A stretch of 64,000 nt of DNA from Phormidesmis priestleyi Ana (GTDB taxonomy: Bacteria > Cyanobacteriota > Cyanobacteriia > Phormidesmidales > Phormidesmidaceae), in the NCBI GenBank assembly GCA_001314865.1, contig LJZR01000015.1, positions 1 to 64,000 on the forward strand, written 5' to 3'. Numbering within the stretch: the stretch's first letter is position 1; each line of letters begins with the position of its first letter. This document shows positions 13,135-38,333 of this stretch, one piece after another. Below the pieces are notes generated by a model, which saw only the letters and a program-made list of their open reading frames with translations, was not told the origin of the DNA and searched no databases. Made by a program: the position numbers and the translations under genes.

Positions 13135-15045
13135 CTAAACAGGCAGCTTAGGCAAAAAGTACAGACTCATATATAGGCCCAGCGCCAAACTCACAGCCGC
13201 CATCACAAAAACATAAAACTGCATTCTGCCGGTGTTGATATATTTCAGCGATTCTCCACCGAACAACGAAACGGAGCCAACTAGGTTTACCAAGCCATCG
13301 ACCACATAAATATCTAGCCAGTCCGTGAGCTGAGAGAGCTTATCTACTAGCGCAATCACCGTAAACTGATAGACCTTTGGTGTGTAAAAGTCGTAAGCCA
13401 GCAAACGGTTGAGCAGCGGCGGTAGCAGCTTTTCAGGACGAGTAATGCGTTCGAGAATATAGAAGGCGATCGCCACTCCAAGCCCTAGCGCACTAGAAGC
13501 CAACAGGCCTATTGCCATAGGTGAAACCAGTGAGAGGTTGTTAGGCAGCAGTTCTGCTTGTTTCATGACCAAAGGCAAATGCAAAGTAAAGCCCGCCATC
13601 GCAACCATTGGCAGAACCATGAGCCAGAGCGGCTCGGCAGCGCGAGTGGTCGAAGGCGTGACCTTGCCCGCAAAGGCCAGACCAAACATTCGCATGAGGG
13701 CAAACCCAGCCACTGCGTTAGTTACCATGACCACTGCGACCAGCCACCACTGCCCAGAATCTACCAAGTCATTGAGCAAGTTCAACAATGCCCAAAACCC
13801 GCCAAACGGCGGTAGCGCCACCAGCCCTGCAATCCCCACTAAAAAAGAAAGTCCGGTGATCGGACGACGGCTCCACAGCCCGCCCATTTGCGTTAAGTCC
13901 TGCGTGACCACGTTTAAAATCAAAGATCCAACGGCCATGAGCAGTAGCGCAGTTGCGATCGCATGTGTGAGCACCAACATTAGCGCCGTCTCTGGCTGAG
14001 CTGACCCAACCGCTACAAAAATCAGGCCCATGTAGGCACTCGCTAGGTAAGACATCACCCGCTTAATATCGATTTGAGCCGCAGCAATCAGGCTGCCTCC
14101 CAGAGCCGAAACACTCCCAATGACCACGACCATTCCGGTTGCAACTGGCGAGAGCAAAATCACAGGCGCTAGTTTTACGAGTACCCAAGCCCCTGTCGCA
14201 ACCACGACCGAATTTCGCAAAATGGTCGTTGGTAACGGCCCCTCCATGGCCTCATCTAGCCATAAATGCAAAGGGAACTGAGCGCACTTACTCACTGGCC
14301 CCCATACCAGCGCTACACCAATGAGAGAAAGGGTGAGTGGCGCGATCGCGTCATTGGCCGGAACAGTTTCGGCCCATAGCGCCAGCTCGCTAAAGTTCCA
14401 AGTACCCGCCAGCGGATAGAGCGCCAGTACGCCCATTAACAAAATTAAATCGCCAATGCGCTTGGTTAAAAAAGCATCCCGAGCCCCCGTCACCACCAGC
14501 GACTGATTAAACCAAAAGCCAACGATTAAATAGGTTCCTAGGGTTAAAATTTCGAGCAAAATATAGCTAAAGAACAGCGAGTCGCATAGCACTAGCGCCG
14601 TTAGCCCCGCCTCAAACAAAGCCAGCAGCGAATACAGCCGCCCCCAGCCCCAGTCCATTTCTAGGTAACCTATTGCATACACTTGCACCAGCAAGTTGAG
14701 CACTGTGACAACAACACTCGCCCCTAGCGTCAGCGCTGAAAGCTCTAGCGGTAGCGTGAGATTTAAGTCGGCAACCTGAAGCCAGGAGAGCTGCAAAAAC
14801 TGTGGCGGCTGATGCCACATCGCAACAAACGCTAAACTGCTGTGAGTTAGCGCGACTACAGTCATCAACAGATTCAAATATCCGACCGGACGCGGTCCGC
14901 TGCGACGAATCAGCGCAGGCGACCAAAAAATTGAAAAAGCTGCCCCTAACATCGGATAGCAGGGAATCAACCAGCTGGTCTGAGCAAAAAAGCCAGTCAA
15001 AGAACCAGTTAAAGAATTAGGGGCGAAAATATCAGCGCCAACCAT
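13135..15045 (-). CDS. ndhF3: NAD(P)H dehydrogenase subunit NdhF3
   Basis: 636 residues and about 16 membrane helices, of the NuoL/NdhF family. Recognisable parts are YILLEILTLGTYLIVGFWFN, KCAQFPLHLWLDEAMEGPLP, DIKRVMSYLASAYMGLIFVAVG and a long C-terminal region with FYTPKVYQFTVIALVDKLSQLTDWLD typical of F3/F4-type subunits. It is the first gene of ndhF3-ndhD3-cupA-cupS, the low-CO2-inducible high-affinity CO2-uptake complex of thylakoids. In relatives the operon is repressed by the LysR-type CcmR/NdhR. No such regulator gene is in this window, but an 18-bp palindrome lies 104 bp upstream of the start. Confidence 0.93.
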   Translation of the reverse strand: MVGADIFAPNSLTGSLTGFFAQTSWLIPCYPMLGAAFSIFWSPALIRRSGPRPVGYLNLLMTVVALTHSSLAFVAMWHQPPQFLQLSWLQVADLNLTLPLELSALTLGASVVVTVLNLLVQVYAIGYLEMDWGWGRLYSLLALFEAGLTALVLCDSLFFSYILLEILTLGTYLIVGFWFNQSLVVTGARDAFLTKRIGDLILLMGVLALYPLAGTWNFSELALWAETVPANDAIAPLTLSLIGVALVWGPVSKCAQFPLHLWLDEAMEGPLPTTILRNSVVVATGAWVLVKLAPVILLSPVATGMVVVIGSVSALGGSLIAAAQIDIKRVMSYLASAYMGLIFVAVGSAQPETALMLVLTHAIATALLLMAVGSLILNVVTQDLTQMGGLWSRRPITGLSFLVGIAGLVALPPFGGFWALLNLLNDLVDSGQWWLVAVVMVTNAVAGFALMRMFGLAFAGKVTPSTTRAAEPLWLMVLPMVAMAGFTLHLPLVMKQAELLPNNLSLVSPMAIGLLASSALGLGVAIAFYILERITRPEKLLPPLLNRLLAYDFYTPKVYQFTVIALVDKLSQLTDWLDIYVVDGLVNLVGSVSLFGGESLKYINTGRMQFYVFVMAAVSLALGLYMSLYFLPKLPV

Positions 15046-15148
15046 AGTCGTAAGCAGTAAAGGACATTTTCGTCAGCTCCACTAAAAAACCTTTCCCACA
15101 GCGTCTTTTACAAGCCAAAATGCTGCCGAATACACACTGCCGAATACG

Positions 15149-15166
15149 CATAGACATTAGTCTATG
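15149..15166. promoter_or_regulatory. Palindrome upstream of ndhF3 (candidate LysR-type operator)
   Basis: CATAGAC-ATTA-GTCTATG is a perfect 7-bp inverted repeat with a 4-bp spacer, centred about 112 bp upstream of the ndhF3 start. LysR-type regulators bind T-N11-A palindromes, and ndhF3 operons are CcmR/NdhR targets. It does not match the published NdhR sequence closely, so the assignment is inference. Confidence 0.4.
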
Positions 15167-15338
15167 GCGAATAAATTTGAATGCGGAGAAACTCAATACT
15201 TAGAATATAGCATTGTCTTTGTCTATTTAAGGCGCGATCAGATTGGATAATCTTAATACTTTACTCGTATTTCCTTATAGCAAGGACTTAATGGAAACGC
15301 CAGCACGACAAAACCACTGAACCTAATGCATAAAAAAA

Positions 15339-15366
15339 CGCTCTCCTGAAGGAAAAAAGGAGAGCG
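15339..15366 (-). terminator. Intrinsic terminator in the ndhF3 upstream region
   Basis: CGCTCTCC (15339-15346) pairs with GGAGAGCG (15359-15366). On the minus strand the stem is followed directly by seven Ts (A-run 15332-15338). It stops minus-strand transcription about 290 bp before ndhF3, although no minus-strand protein gene ends nearby. Confidence 0.75.
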
Positions 15367-15514
15367 CAGTTGACGCAAGCTTGTAAATCGGCATCACAGC
15401 AGATGGACTGCTGATTGACGGCTCAGCCGCTGATAGCCAAACCACAAATCTATGAATGCAATTACCTTCAGAAGCCCAAAAGGTTGAGAAACGTTTTAGA
15501 GCAACAGAGATAGC

Positions 15515-15631
15515 CTTAAAAACAACGATTGACTTGAGCCAATCGTTTTCTGACCTCTCATAAACTCAAGTCTATCTCAAAACGATTCTAAAAACCGCCA
15601 GAGTGGATAGAAAGTAGAACAAATTTTCAAA
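15515..15631 (-). ncRNA. Candidate small RNA or attenuator leader upstream of the NDH-1MS operon
   Basis: A minus-strand sigma70-type promoter is present: -35 ATGACA (15660-15665), 17-bp spacer, -10 TATACT (15637-15642). A transcript from about 15630 would reach an 8-bp hairpin, AACGATTG/CAATCGTT (15524-15531 with 15540-15547), followed by a T-rich run, giving an RNA of about 115 nt. Upstream in the same RNA an 8-base segment (15565-15572) is exactly complementary to the terminator's loop and inner stem (15531-15538), so an alternative pairing could block the terminator. No ORF of note lies inside. It matches no small RNA I recognise. It may be an independent sRNA or a regulated leader. Confidence 0.45.
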
Positions 15632-15730
15632 TCTGGAGTATAAGTAAAGCTTTTGTATTTGTCATTTGGCCATATCTTAAGTTGATGTTTGTAGTTCAGT
15701 CTTTTTAGAATTCAGCACTCTCTAAACCGT

Positions 15731-15793
15731 TCACAACTCACAACTCACAACTCACAACTCACAACTCACAACTCACAACTCACAACTCACAAC
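15731..15793. repeat. Nine tandem copies of the heptamer TCACAAC
   Basis: 63 bp made of nine perfect head-to-tail copies of TCACAAC, the type of short tandemly repeated repetitive sequence (STRR) known from filamentous cyanobacteria. It lies between the gene at 16005-16763 and the small-RNA promoter. Confidence 0.95.
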
Positions 15794-15856
15794 AGTAGGC
15801 TAGCGCGGTAGGCTAGCGCTCAACTCTAATAGGATCTTGTAGGATCTTGTAGGCTT

Positions 15857-15956
15857 CAGTCATGCGAGAGAGGTCATGCAAGAAAGGGGTCATTCAAGAG
15901 AGGAAGTCATTCAAGAAAGAGGTCATTCAAGAGAGAAGTCATTCAAGAGATAGATT
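15857..15956. repeat. Degenerate 15-18 bp tandem repeat
   Basis: About six copies of a GTCATTCAAGAGAG-like unit lie head to tail, preceded by two copies of GGTAGGCTAGCGC and two of AGGATCTTGT (15795-15855). With the heptamer array these fill most of the stretch between 15730 and 16004, which holds no gene. Confidence 0.85.
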
Positions 15957-16004
15957 TCGAGCCATCCATATTAAGGCAGGGTGATTCGAGGCAGGGTTTA
16001 GGAC

Positions 16005-16763
16005 TCAGGTTCTTTCTCTACTGAGTTCGTGATGAACACTAGTGCCAATTTGAATGGCTTCGTTGAGTAGGCGGCCATAGTCACTGGCTGCATCGTTCAC
16101 CTGTAGCTGCTGAAGCGTTGCTAAGTTTCTTTCAATGTTAGAGAACATTTGCTGACGCCGAGCCATCAATCGCTGGTGTTTGCGCATCACTCGTTCGGTC
16201 ATCAATCCGCACACTAAGCTTTCTCGGGTGAGATGCAGCGCTTCTAGCACGTCTTCTTTGTTTTCTAGGTTCAATTGGCTGTTTTGAGTAGATCCTAATT
16301 CTTCTAAAATTTCGACAGCGGCGACCATTTCATTAAAGCGATCAATTTCGTCGAGTAAATGGCTCAGGATAATCAGACGCTGACCAGCCTGCCAGCGATA
16401 GCCTGTCCAAAAGGTGGTGAGCGCGATCGCACCGACCCCGCCGACTGGCAACCAACGCCACACCGCCTGAACATTATCGCCACTCAAAGAGCGAGACAGT
16501 AGTAGCGTAATCGGTAGGCAAAATATCAGCGCGACCCCAACCGTCAGGAGTTGCTCGCTTAGCCATGTTAGCCGTCGCTGGGGCGAAAAAGCCGTCTGCC
16601 GATAGGCCCAGCCCATCGTAACGTCGCTAATGTCCAAATCGGTTAATTTATCTTGTTCTTGCTGGCTAATTCTGAGATTGTCCAGATTAGAGATAGGGCT
16701 TGAGCGCAGATAACTTGGCTCAGTGCTACTGTTTTGGGATGCTTGATTGGTCTCTTCGGACAT
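16005..16763 (-). CDS. Conserved two-TM membrane protein of unknown function
   Basis: 252 residues. The N-terminal 65 residues are soluble and polar. Two membrane helices follow (about 72-90 and 102-120), then a long cytoplasmic helical region (about 125-250) rich in Leu, Glu and Arg with coiled-coil character. No enzymatic motif is recognised. It is the third gene of a minus-strand cluster after two paralogous membrane proteins (66 bp gap), so a shared membrane function is possible. The start is ATG 16763. Confidence 0.75.
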   Translation of the reverse strand: MSEETNQASQNSSTEPSYLRSSPISNLDNLRISQQEQDKLTDLDISDVTMGWAYRQTAFSPQRRLTWLSEQLLTVGVALIFCLPITLLLSRSLSGDNVQAVWRWLPVGGVGAIALTTFWTGYRWQAGQRLIILSHLLDEIDRFNEMVAAVEILEELGSTQNSQLNLENKEDVLEALHLTRESLVCGLMTERVMRKHQRLMARRQQMFSNIERNLATLQQLQVNDAASDYGRLLNEAIQIGTSVHHELSRERT

Positions 16764-16829: not shown

Positions 16830-17513
16830 CTAAAAGCCCAGCATGGTAGCGACAGATTCTAAAACTTTGGCATAGAAGTTACCGCTAATTTCGGGTCTAA
16901 AGATTTGAAAGGCTTGACCTTCAGCGCCGAAAAAGGGACGAAGCGTCCAACCGAGCTGCGAGCCCACTAGGGCATAAAGAAAAACCCAGCCCTGTAGCAG
17001 CTTTTTGCGCATGTCTTTTTCTGGGGCTTCTGGCCCACTGACCATATCGCGCATTCCTTTATAAAAGAGCTTGATGCCGACGCCGCCCGTAATGGCCATA
17101 ATCAGCACATTGAGTAGCAAAAAGAAGTCGTAGCCCTTGACTGAAATTAAAAAGAAGAGAACAACCGGGGCAAAACTAAATAAAAGAACGCTAATGACGG
17201 AGACAGCGGTAAGCGCCAGGGTGACATACTGCTTAAAATCGAGCTTGGAACCAAAGAGAATATCAAAGAAATACAGCGTGGGAATGCAGATAATCAGCGT
17301 AAGCAAATAGAGTGCAGGCAGCTTGATAGCGGAGGAAATGATTTGCAAGCCCCCGCCATATGCGCCGATAATTGCGCCGTAAACGGCAAAGAAAAAGCTG
17401 CTAGAAATGAGCAGTGAGGCAATTTTAGTCTCTAGCTTAACGCTGTTACGGACATCTTCTAAAAAGGTTTTGCGATCGCGCAATAGCGTAATCAACACCG
17501 AAAAATGATTCAT
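16830..17513 (-). CDS. Multi-pass membrane protein, paralogue 2 of a tandem pair (Yip1-like)
   Basis: 227 residues beginning MNHFSVLITLLRDRKTFLED, then about five to six membrane helices. It is very similar along its whole length to the next upstream gene: ETKIASLL, SSAIKLPALYLLTL, PTLYFFDILFGS, FYKGMRD, GSQLGWTLRPF and FRPEISGNFY are shared. The layout resembles Yip1-like integral membrane proteins, and databases often give these cyanobacterial proteins uninformative labels. No function is known to me. The pair looks like a local duplication, followed by divergence mainly in the loop near residues 165-175. Confidence 0.8.
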   Translation of the reverse strand: MNHFSVLITLLRDRKTFLEDVRNSVKLETKIASLLISSSFFFAVYGAIIGAYGGGLQIISSAIKLPALYLLTLIICIPTLYFFDILFGSKLDFKQYVTLALTAVSVISVLLFSFAPVVLFFLISVKGYDFFLLLNVLIMAITGGVGIKLFYKGMRDMVSGPEAPEKDMRKKLLQGWVFLYALVGSQLGWTLRPFFGAEGQAFQIFRPEISGNFYAKVLESVATMLGF

Positions 17514-17618: not shown

Positions 17619-18317
17619 TTAGTTCCAGCCGAGAAAAATGCCGATAGATCGGGCAATTTGCGTATAGAAGTTGCCCTCAATTTCGGGCCGAAACATTTGA
17701 AACGGCTCGCCGTCAAAGCCGAGGAATGGCCTCAGTGTCCAGCCGAGCTGTGAGCCCACCAGTCCGTATAGAATGACCCAGCCTTGCAGCAAGTAGCGAC
17801 GCGACTTTTGAGAAACAACTGGTGAAACAATATCAGGCGTGCTGGTAATATCGCGCATTCCTTTGTAAAAGAGCCTGACGCCGATGCTGCCGGTAATGGC
17901 CATAATCAACACATTCAGCAGTAAAAAGAAGAAATAGTCTTTCACTGAAATGAGGAAAAAGAGGATAACGGGCGCGAAGCTAAAGAGTAAAACGCTAATG
18001 ACCGCAACCGCAGTGAGGGCCATGGTGATGTACTGCTTAAAGTTAAGCCTGGAGCCAAAGAGAATATCAAAGAAGTAAAGGGTCGGCAGGCAAATTAAAA
18101 GCGTTAGCAGATATAAGGCTGGGAGTTTTATCGCTGAGGACAGGGTTTGTAAAAAACCGCTGTAAGCGCCAATAATGGCCCCGTAGATGGCAAAAAATAG
18201 ACTGCTGGAAACCAACAGTGAGGCAATTTTGGTTTCTAGCTTTTCATTGTTGCGAACTTCGTCTAAAAACTTTCGGCGATCGCGGAGCAGTCGAATAAGC
18301 GTATCAAAGTGATTCAT
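17619..18317 (-). CDS. Multi-pass membrane protein, paralogue 1 of a tandem pair (Yip1-like)
   Basis: 232 residues and about five to six membrane helices. It is the upstream member of a tandem duplicate pair in one orientation, 105 bp before the second copy. It shares the N-terminal MNHF-LI-LLRDR segment, the PALYLLTLLICLPTLYFFD helix and a C-terminal GSQLGWTLRPFLGF motif with that copy. It carries a slightly longer loop (about 160-178) than its partner. Probable first gene of the three-gene unit 18317-16005. The role is unknown. Confidence 0.8.
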   Translation of the reverse strand: MNHFDTLIRLLRDRRKFLDEVRNNEKLETKIASLLVSSSLFFAIYGAIIGAYSGFLQTLSSAIKLPALYLLTLLICLPTLYFFDILFGSRLNFKQYITMALTAVAVISVLLFSFAPVILFFLISVKDYFFFLLLNVLIMAITGSIGVRLFYKGMRDITSTPDIVSPVVSQKSRRYLLQGWVILYGLVGSQLGWTLRPFLGFDGEPFQMFRPEIEGNFYTQIARSIGIFLGWN

Positions 18318-36475: not shown

Positions 36476-37795
36476 TCAATTAGGGTCCAAGCGCCCCTCC
36501 TGACGAGAATTAAACACAATGGGTACGCCCTTACGACTCGCCTGTGCTTGCGTATAGCTCACTCGGTCAATGCGTCGCCCCTTATTGAATTGTTCACTGG
36601 GCGGATCGTAAAGCGCAATCACCCCGCTGTTATTAGAGAGCATCATCGGGGCTACTGGCTGAACTCTGACCGCTTGCCCCGGCAACAGTAAGCGCTTGTC
36701 TTGAGTTAGCGCTTTGCTGAGGTTCAAGCGAGGGCGTCGCATGTCCGATAGCGTCCACCCGGTTAAATCAACCTCACGATTAGACAGATTGATAATCGAA
36801 ATCCATTCGCCCACCCGATCATTCCCCGTGGCATTTACCATCGCCGCTGCAATAAAAATGGGCACTTCTCGATCAACCGAAAAGTCTCGAACCTCTTCTT
36901 CAGAGATCATCTCTTCAGGGACATCTACCTCAATTCGCTCAGGGAATTCCGGAATATTTAATCTTTTCTGCTTCTCTTCATTTTCATTGAACAGTAGCGG
37001 ATTTTTCTCATAAATTTTGTCGTCAAAATCCAACCCCGTCAGTATCTCAATTTCAGAGACAGTCACCTGATATCGCTGAAAGTTAAACAGTCGATTGCCG
37101 TTTTTGTCTGCCAAAGCTTCTCGATCTTGAAACAAGATAAAGGCTCGTACATCTAGCTCTTTTGTTTCTTTGCTAACAAAGCAAACTACTTTAAAAAATG
37201 CTGCGGGCGTCTCAGCAGGAGGTCTACCCGATGGGCTAATCATACGGCCAAATTCGCCGTAAATCGGCCCAGTAAACTCAGTGATCTTGCCATCTTCACC
37301 CAGCGTCAGATTTTTCACCCAGTTCTCTAGAGCGAGCCACTCATCCTGATTAAAGTTCTCATGCTGAAGCGTCGCATTCGAGAAAAAGAACGTCATATCA
37401 GAGGCTTTTTTGGCCTCACGAGCAGTTGCTCCCCAAGAAATGGTAGACCGCCTAGCCAAATGGCCTCTATCCCAAGGATTTGCTGCGTAATAGTCATTGT
37501 TGAGCTGAAACTCTGCGCCAATGCGTGTGTCTAGATCCCACCCTCTTTTGCGAGCGCTACTTTTGAGCATGGTTTGATCGATATTGAGGGCTGCAAAAAT
37601 AGGCGATCGCCTGACCTGATTCATCACCAGCGTGTAGTTCACATAATCAGCGTAAATACCGTCTCGCAGCTCTAACCTATTGAGGACATTGCCAATGAGC
37701 GCAGGTGAAAAACTGGGCATCGGGAGAGGAATATCTTTCCCCAAAAAATCAGGATCGTAACCATTCATCGCATCCAACTCCTCGCAATAGGTCAT
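36476..37795 (-). CDS. NUC1-family DNA/RNA non-specific endonuclease fused to a lamin-tail (LTD) domain
   Basis: 439 residues. The nuclease domain (about 25-270) has the catalytic motif DRGHLARRST (His at about 110), an upstream FQLNNDYY segment and downstream FFFSNATLQHENFNQDEW, as in Serratia/NucA-type beta-beta-alpha-Me nucleases that cut DNA and RNA with Mg2+. A linker with an acidic segment leads to an LTD domain (about 305-415: EWISIINLSNREVDLTGWTLSD) typical of secreted or nucleic-acid-associated proteins. I see no N-terminal signal peptide, unlike exported NucA. Either the start is wrong, export is non-classical, or it works inside the cell. It may share a transcript with the small repeat protein downstream. 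Confidence 0.85.
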   Translation of the reverse strand: MTYCEELDAMNGYDPDFLGKDIPLPMPSFSPALIGNVLNRLELRDGIYADYVNYTLVMNQVRRSPIFAALNIDQTMLKSSARKRGWDLDTRIGAEFQLNNDYYAANPWDRGHLARRSTISWGATAREAKKASDMTFFFSNATLQHENFNQDEWLALENWVKNLTLGEDGKITEFTGPIYGEFGRMISPSGRPPAETPAAFFKVVCFVSKETKELDVRAFILFQDREALADKNGNRLFNFQRYQVTVSEIEILTGLDFDDKIYEKNPLLFNENEEKQKRLNIPEFPERIEVDVPEEMISEEEVRDFSVDREVPIFIAAAMVNATGNDRVGEWISIINLSNREVDLTGWTLSDMRRPRLNLSKALTQDKRLLLPGQAVRVQPVAPMMLSNNSGVIALYDPPSEQFNKGRRIDRVSYTQAQASRKGVPIVFNSRQEGRLDPN

Positions 37796-38333
37796 GGCCT
37801 ATGAATTCTTGGCCGGTAGATAGCTTTTGTCAATACACATTTCACCATACAAGCCGCGATACAAACTACGATGCAAATCACAATGCAAAATACATTTCAC
37901 CATATCGGCTGCATTTACGCTGTGAGCTAGGCTGTGAACCCGTCGCAGAAATCGTTTTGCAATATGCACAACACCTGTTACTGTGCTTGATTTCCCTGAT
38001 GGAGCATACGCCGGGACAAAGAAAAGACAGTTCGTCAAGCCTGATAAGTTTCGTGAATACTGCGTGAATACTATATGAGTAAGCATGGCGTTAGCGAAGC
38101 TGAAATCGATAGCTTTATAAAAGAGAGATTAGAAGCCCAAAAAGAACATGCTCAAAAAAATAGAACAGCCTCGTTAAAATGGCCGCTGAACATCGATTGT
38201 CAATGGCCAGCCATGACGACGCGACCATAGAACATGTTTATCTTTGCCGCTATCTATCTTTAGCTAGTTTCAAGAATGCGCCCTCTCGTGTAAGCTCTGG
38301 CCATTATTACAATCACTATTACACTCAAGTGAG
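37796..38333. other. Spacer, mostly without recognised genes
   Basis: Apart from the 51-codon frame at 38075, no convincing gene is seen. Minus and plus frames of about 95-120 codons exist in 37705-38086 but have no family features. The stretch 37840-37905 repeats CGATACAAACTACGATGCAA-like units. Confidence 0.5.
38075..38230 (+). CDS. Possible small protein (51 residues)
   Basis: ATG at 38075 opens a 51-codon frame with a helical, charged N-terminal part (EAEIDSFIKERLEAQKEHAQ) and a C-terminal LNIDCQWPAM segment. The composition is protein-like, but the ribosome site is weak and I do not recognise it. It could be a genuine small protein or a remnant. Confidence 0.35.
   Translation: MSKHGVSEAEIDSFIKERLEAQKEHAQKNRTASLKWPLNIDCQWPAMTTRP

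Follow-up and report, generated by a model that had tools for sequence, protein, structure and literature searches.

Among the systems described so far, the closest to the DNA considered here include the cyanobacterial ndhF3 promoters controlled by NdhR (CcmR). The motif ATAG-N8-CTAT is given as the NdhR consensus in a review (PMC13249358, citing Klaehn et al. 2015). A gene set is assigned to the NdhR regulon here when an operator lies upstream of its first gene. Two classes of RNA are also relevant: transcription attenuators and pseudoknot riboswitches (e.g., the preQ1 family), in which mutually exclusive terminator and antiterminator pairings precede a regulated gene, and cyanobacterial intergenic small RNAs ending in intrinsic terminators. 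A leader of the NDH-1MS operon would be expected to form a continuous transcription unit into ndhF3 and to be conserved with the operon.

We analyzed a window of 64,000 nucleotides from Phormidesmis priestleyi Ana (contig LJZR01000015.1). The element under study lies on the minus strand between a codirectional 252-aa gene and ndhF3 (Table 1). The sequence-only reading had placed it in front of the NDH-1MS operon, and the Pfam matches of the downstream genes (NdhF/NdhD-type subunits and ChpXY, i.e., CupA) agree: the order is ndhF3-ndhD3-cupA-fasciclin/cupS, with a fasciclin-domain protein (Pfam) in the cupS position. The 252-aa gene and ndhF3 were not neighbors in the six congeners examined. 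The intergenic region also carries approximately nine tandem heptamers (TCACAAC/GTTGTGA; 15731-15793) resembling cyanobacterial short tandem heptamer repeats and, between this array and the 252-aa gene, imperfect tandem units of ~16 nt containing CTTGAATGAC (15866-15950). Farther upstream, two adjacent minus-strand genes (16830-17513 and 17619-18317) encode clearly paralogous membrane proteins, the first of which has no Pfam match.

Table 1. Features of the region between the 252-aa gene and ndhF3, with positions in the window
Feature	Position	Strand	Remark
Upstream codirectional gene	16005..16763	-	252-aa conserved protein; no Pfam match
Sigma-70-like promoter ATGACA-17-TATACT	15637..15665	-	Consensus match only; inferred start ~15632-15630
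Candidate RNA A, ~115 nt	15518..15632	-	Promoter to T-run of T1; predicted
S1 5' strand AATCGTTTT	15579..15587	-	Partner, 15549-15541
S2 5' strand GACTTGAG	15565..15572	-	Upstream segment of the sequence-only reading; reaches 15576 with one mismatch
S1 3' strand AAAACGATT	15541..15549	-	Overlaps 5' arm of T1
S2 3' strand CTCAAGTC	15531..15538	-	T1 loop and inner stem
T1, intrinsic-terminator-like hairpin	15524..15547	-	Followed by GTTTTT
Region B, predicted three-way junction between T1 and T2	15376..15452	-	z = -2.9 without T2
T2, strong intrinsic terminator hairpin	15339..15366	-	Followed by T7
Conserved ndhF3 promoter block	15185..15265	-	75.6% over 82 nt to a congener
NdhR/CcmR operator motif ATAG-N8-CTAT, exact	15150..15165	-	Downstream of T2, upstream of ndhF3
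ndhF3	13135..15045	-	First gene of NDH-1MS operon

The two elements of the promoter previously proposed for the minus strand, with a 17-bp spacing, are present: ATGACA (15665-15660) and TATACT (15642-15637) match the consensus at 10 of 12 positions. The intergenic minus strand contains one match of this quality (0.15 in shuffles), and four matches of at least 10/12 occur in the whole window on both strands; a looser scan (at least 9/12) returned 3 matches against 2.3 expected, which is not significant. The 10/12 score is suggestive of a real promoter, short of proof. Together with the terminator-like T1, this match outlines a candidate intergenic small-RNA unit. Candidate RNA A as a whole folded no better than shuffled sequences (z = -1.3) and its complementarity to the start region of ndhF3 was unremarkable (z = 0.03). 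Antisense action of RNA A on ndhF3, ndhD3, or their neighbors was rejected for want of notable complementarity, and an NdhR-like motif with one mismatch at 15575-15560, within RNA A, was set aside because the window holds 18 such sites (17.8 expected).

T1 comprises 10 pairs with a T5 tail (-12.0 kcal/mol; z = -5.1 versus shuffles). Its loop had been reported to pair with an upstream 8-base segment, and the two strands of this pairing (S2) are indeed perfectly complementary over 8 bp. A further pairing absent from that account (S1) is perfect over 9 bp. Jointly, S1 and S2 would adopt the topology of an H-type pseudoknot with stems of 9 and 8 bp and loops of 6, 2, and 15 nt; because T1 would lose its 5' arm and loop to this pseudoknot, the terminator would be excluded. 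The locus thus possesses mutually exclusive pairings of the kind found in transcription attenuators. The regulated gene that should follow T1 was not found: the open reading frames and their translations include no gene-like frame between T1 and T2.

To evaluate how often such pairings arise by chance, the 83 nt ahead of the terminator were shuffled 20,000 times with the terminator itself unchanged. A 9-mer pairing appeared in 0.2% of the shuffles, a value that is somewhat flattering because the 9-mer was spotted by eye before the test was designed, and an 8-mer in 0.8%, a post hoc figure for a segment chosen by the earlier reading. Both together never appeared (0/20,000), and 0.11% of the shuffles had pairings of at least 7 nt on each side, arranged as in the pseudoknot. 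A scan of 1.0 Mb of cyanobacterial loci gave 162 terminator-like hairpins, of which T1 alone had such an alternative, even at 7+7. In folds of the growing chain with the polymerase at 15531, the S2 hairpin was the optimum (-20.5). At full length, the T1 form was the optimum (-27.5; S2 forced, -21.8; S1 forced, -15.1), so T1 is the expected end state, which alternative folds could delay.

The second T-run terminator reported before ndhF3 was also recovered and proved more stable than T1 (T2; -14.4 kcal/mol; z = -5.0 versus shuffles; T7 tail). An almost identical hairpin occurs once in each of two congeners, in unrelated contexts (window, 15332-15378; L004/L039, 1501-1553; L005/L036, 1501-1546), and the GCGTCA a few bases ahead of the stem is also kept in these copies. 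One of them sits between an ABC-transporter ATPase gene and a glutaminase gene. Region B folded better than shuffles, and its complementarity to ndhD3 reached z = -2.2 among 18 tests.

The sequence-only reading had tied its proposal to conservation in related genomes, and none was found. BLAST, covariance-model, and Rfam searches that covered six congeners, the family, and 388 class-level genomes detected no homologue of RNA A, and the element region is single copy in its own genome. The element was absent at ndhF3 of the six congeners, all of which keep the operator (in congener G004, ndhF3 is split over several matches, and only the whole-genome searches covered the DNA upstream of it). Nor was any conservation observed downstream of the orthologues of the 252-aa gene in congeners. 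Rfam 15 gave no match in the window at the gathering score; relaxed thresholds gave only sub-threshold chance matches in the region. Covariance-model matches to RNA A in 58 genomes were weak, mostly overlapped long open frames, and never included the T1/S1/S2 set, and the region B model returned, in two congeners, T2-like hairpins only and no homologue; each model had a single sequence, entered twice, as its input, so both are weak for distant relatives. The class-wide BLAST search (388 genomes) produced one 37-nt match in G061 (86%), a low-complexity TTTTGAGA repeat without the terminator or S2, which we discarded. Plasmid and phage collections gave no match. The NdhF3 proteins of congeners are mostly just 68 to 73% identical to that of the window, and a fast-evolving RNA could therefore be missed; yet the nearby operator is still recognizable at this distance.

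Upstream of ndhF3, the only stretch conserved in congeners is 15265-15161, which lies downstream of T2. The promoter block within it shows a -10-like TATATT (15209-15204) and what may be an RbcR-like box, and an exact NdhR motif lies at the downstream end of the stretch, so that an operator precedes the first gene of the operon as in the NdhR regulon. Across 102 ndhF3-like cyanobacterial loci, each with 350 nt of upstream DNA, the exact motif was present in 50 (1.1 in base shuffles) and a motif with at most one mismatch in 81 (21.8 in shuffles). A second exact copy in the window (37787-37802) overlaps the start of an unrelated ORF and was taken as chance. The position of the conserved block and the motif beyond T2 indicates that ndhF3 has its own control region, which T2 would insulate.

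These results bear directly on the earlier proposal of an sRNA or leader controlling CO2-uptake genes, which survives in part. A short RNA ending at T1 and a fold mutually exclusive with T1 are supported as possibilities; control of the CO2-uptake genes is not supported, as T2 intervenes and the conserved block and NdhR motif lie beyond it. Judged from the sequence, the RNA probably does not control CO2 uptake. We consider a terminator/antiterminator leader governing the NDH-1MS operon very unlikely: the element shares a strand with the operon and T1 does have a mutually exclusive fold, but a continuous transcription unit into ndhF3 appears to be interrupted by T2 with its T7 and by a separate promoter block with an exact NdhR motif, and the element is missing from congeners that retain the operator. 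Control of NDH-1MS here looks ordinary, via an NdhR site now placed precisely at 15165-15150, and the element would matter little for CO2 uptake.

The reading that we prefer, held at about even confidence, is a lineage-specific noncoding transcript ending at T1 (~115 nt), with a readthrough form extending to T2 (~300 nt). It is favored by the 10/12 promoter, the stable T1 and T2 with their T-runs, the rare S1/S2 alternative, the growing-chain folds, the absence of a gene-like frame between T1 and T2, and the separate control of ndhF3. It is weakened by the lack of a homologue in the genomes searched, the unremarkable fold of RNA A, a promoter that is a consensus match only, and the lack of complementarity to the ndhF3 start. 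The main alternative is a reading without any RNA gene, to which we assign an appreciable probability short of even: T1 and T2 would be ordinary terminators of the mRNA of the 252-aa gene, shielding ndhF3, and the promoter match and extra pairings would be chance. In favor of this reading, no intrinsic terminator was found on that strand between the gene and T1, the element is not conserved, RNA A reaches a z of only -1.3, and promoter matches of at least 9/12 are at chance level; however, ~460 nt separate T1 from the stop codon of the 252-aa gene, and neither the 10/12 promoter nor the 9+8-bp alternative pairing is common. The preferred reading also has a narrower form that gives the refolding a regulatory role, with T1 as a switch, sensing a ligand or protein, that would decide whether the 115-nt RNA is made or a 300-nt one that includes the structured region B. 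The competing segments stand in the classic order and region B is more stable than its shuffles (z = -2.9), but there is no conserved aptamer or Rfam match, no regulated gene in the T1-T2 interval, and no homologue among the genomes searched, and we regard this form as improbable. Equally doubtful is its evolutionary version, an RNA switch of recent origin: competition between an H-type pseudoknot and an intrinsic terminator would set the ratio of short to long noncoding RNA, with no protein-coding target downstream.

According to the preferred reading, the intergenic region would hold a small transcription unit of its own, distinct from the ndhF3 operon. Polymerase initiating near 15630 would yield RNA A, ending at T1. 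With the polymerase near 15531, the S2 hairpin would be the best fold and the S1+S2 pseudoknot would also be possible; once the 3' arm of T1 emerged, T1 would become more stable, making termination there the default, which the alternative pairing would at most delay or tune. A minority of polymerases may pass T1 and continue to T2, which would halt this readthrough and insulate ndhF3, a gene whose expression presumably starts at its own promoter and is controlled by NdhR. The analysis establishes the sequence elements and how they pair, their predicted energies, the lack of homologues in the genomes searched, and where the conserved operator lies; we infer promoter firing, termination at T1 and T2, and any function of the RNA.

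Compared with NdhR/CcmR-controlled ndhF3 promoters, the window has the same operon order and the exact motif beside a conserved block, and it differs in that this ordinary control region lies downstream of T2, outside the reported element. Terminator/antiterminator attenuators and preQ1-type riboswitches share with the element the opposition of a terminator and an upstream H-type pseudoknot pairing, whereas the element has no Rfam match, conserved ligand-binding core, gene directly downstream, or phylogenetic support. In its short promoter-terminator distance and free-standing position between genes, it resembles the cyanobacterial intergenic small RNAs with intrinsic terminators, but it matches no described family by sequence or model and was detected in a single species. 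Should it be transcribed, the element would count as an orphan small RNA at the species level whose alternative terminator fold is unusually well built, and it would offer a case for how regulatory RNAs arise.
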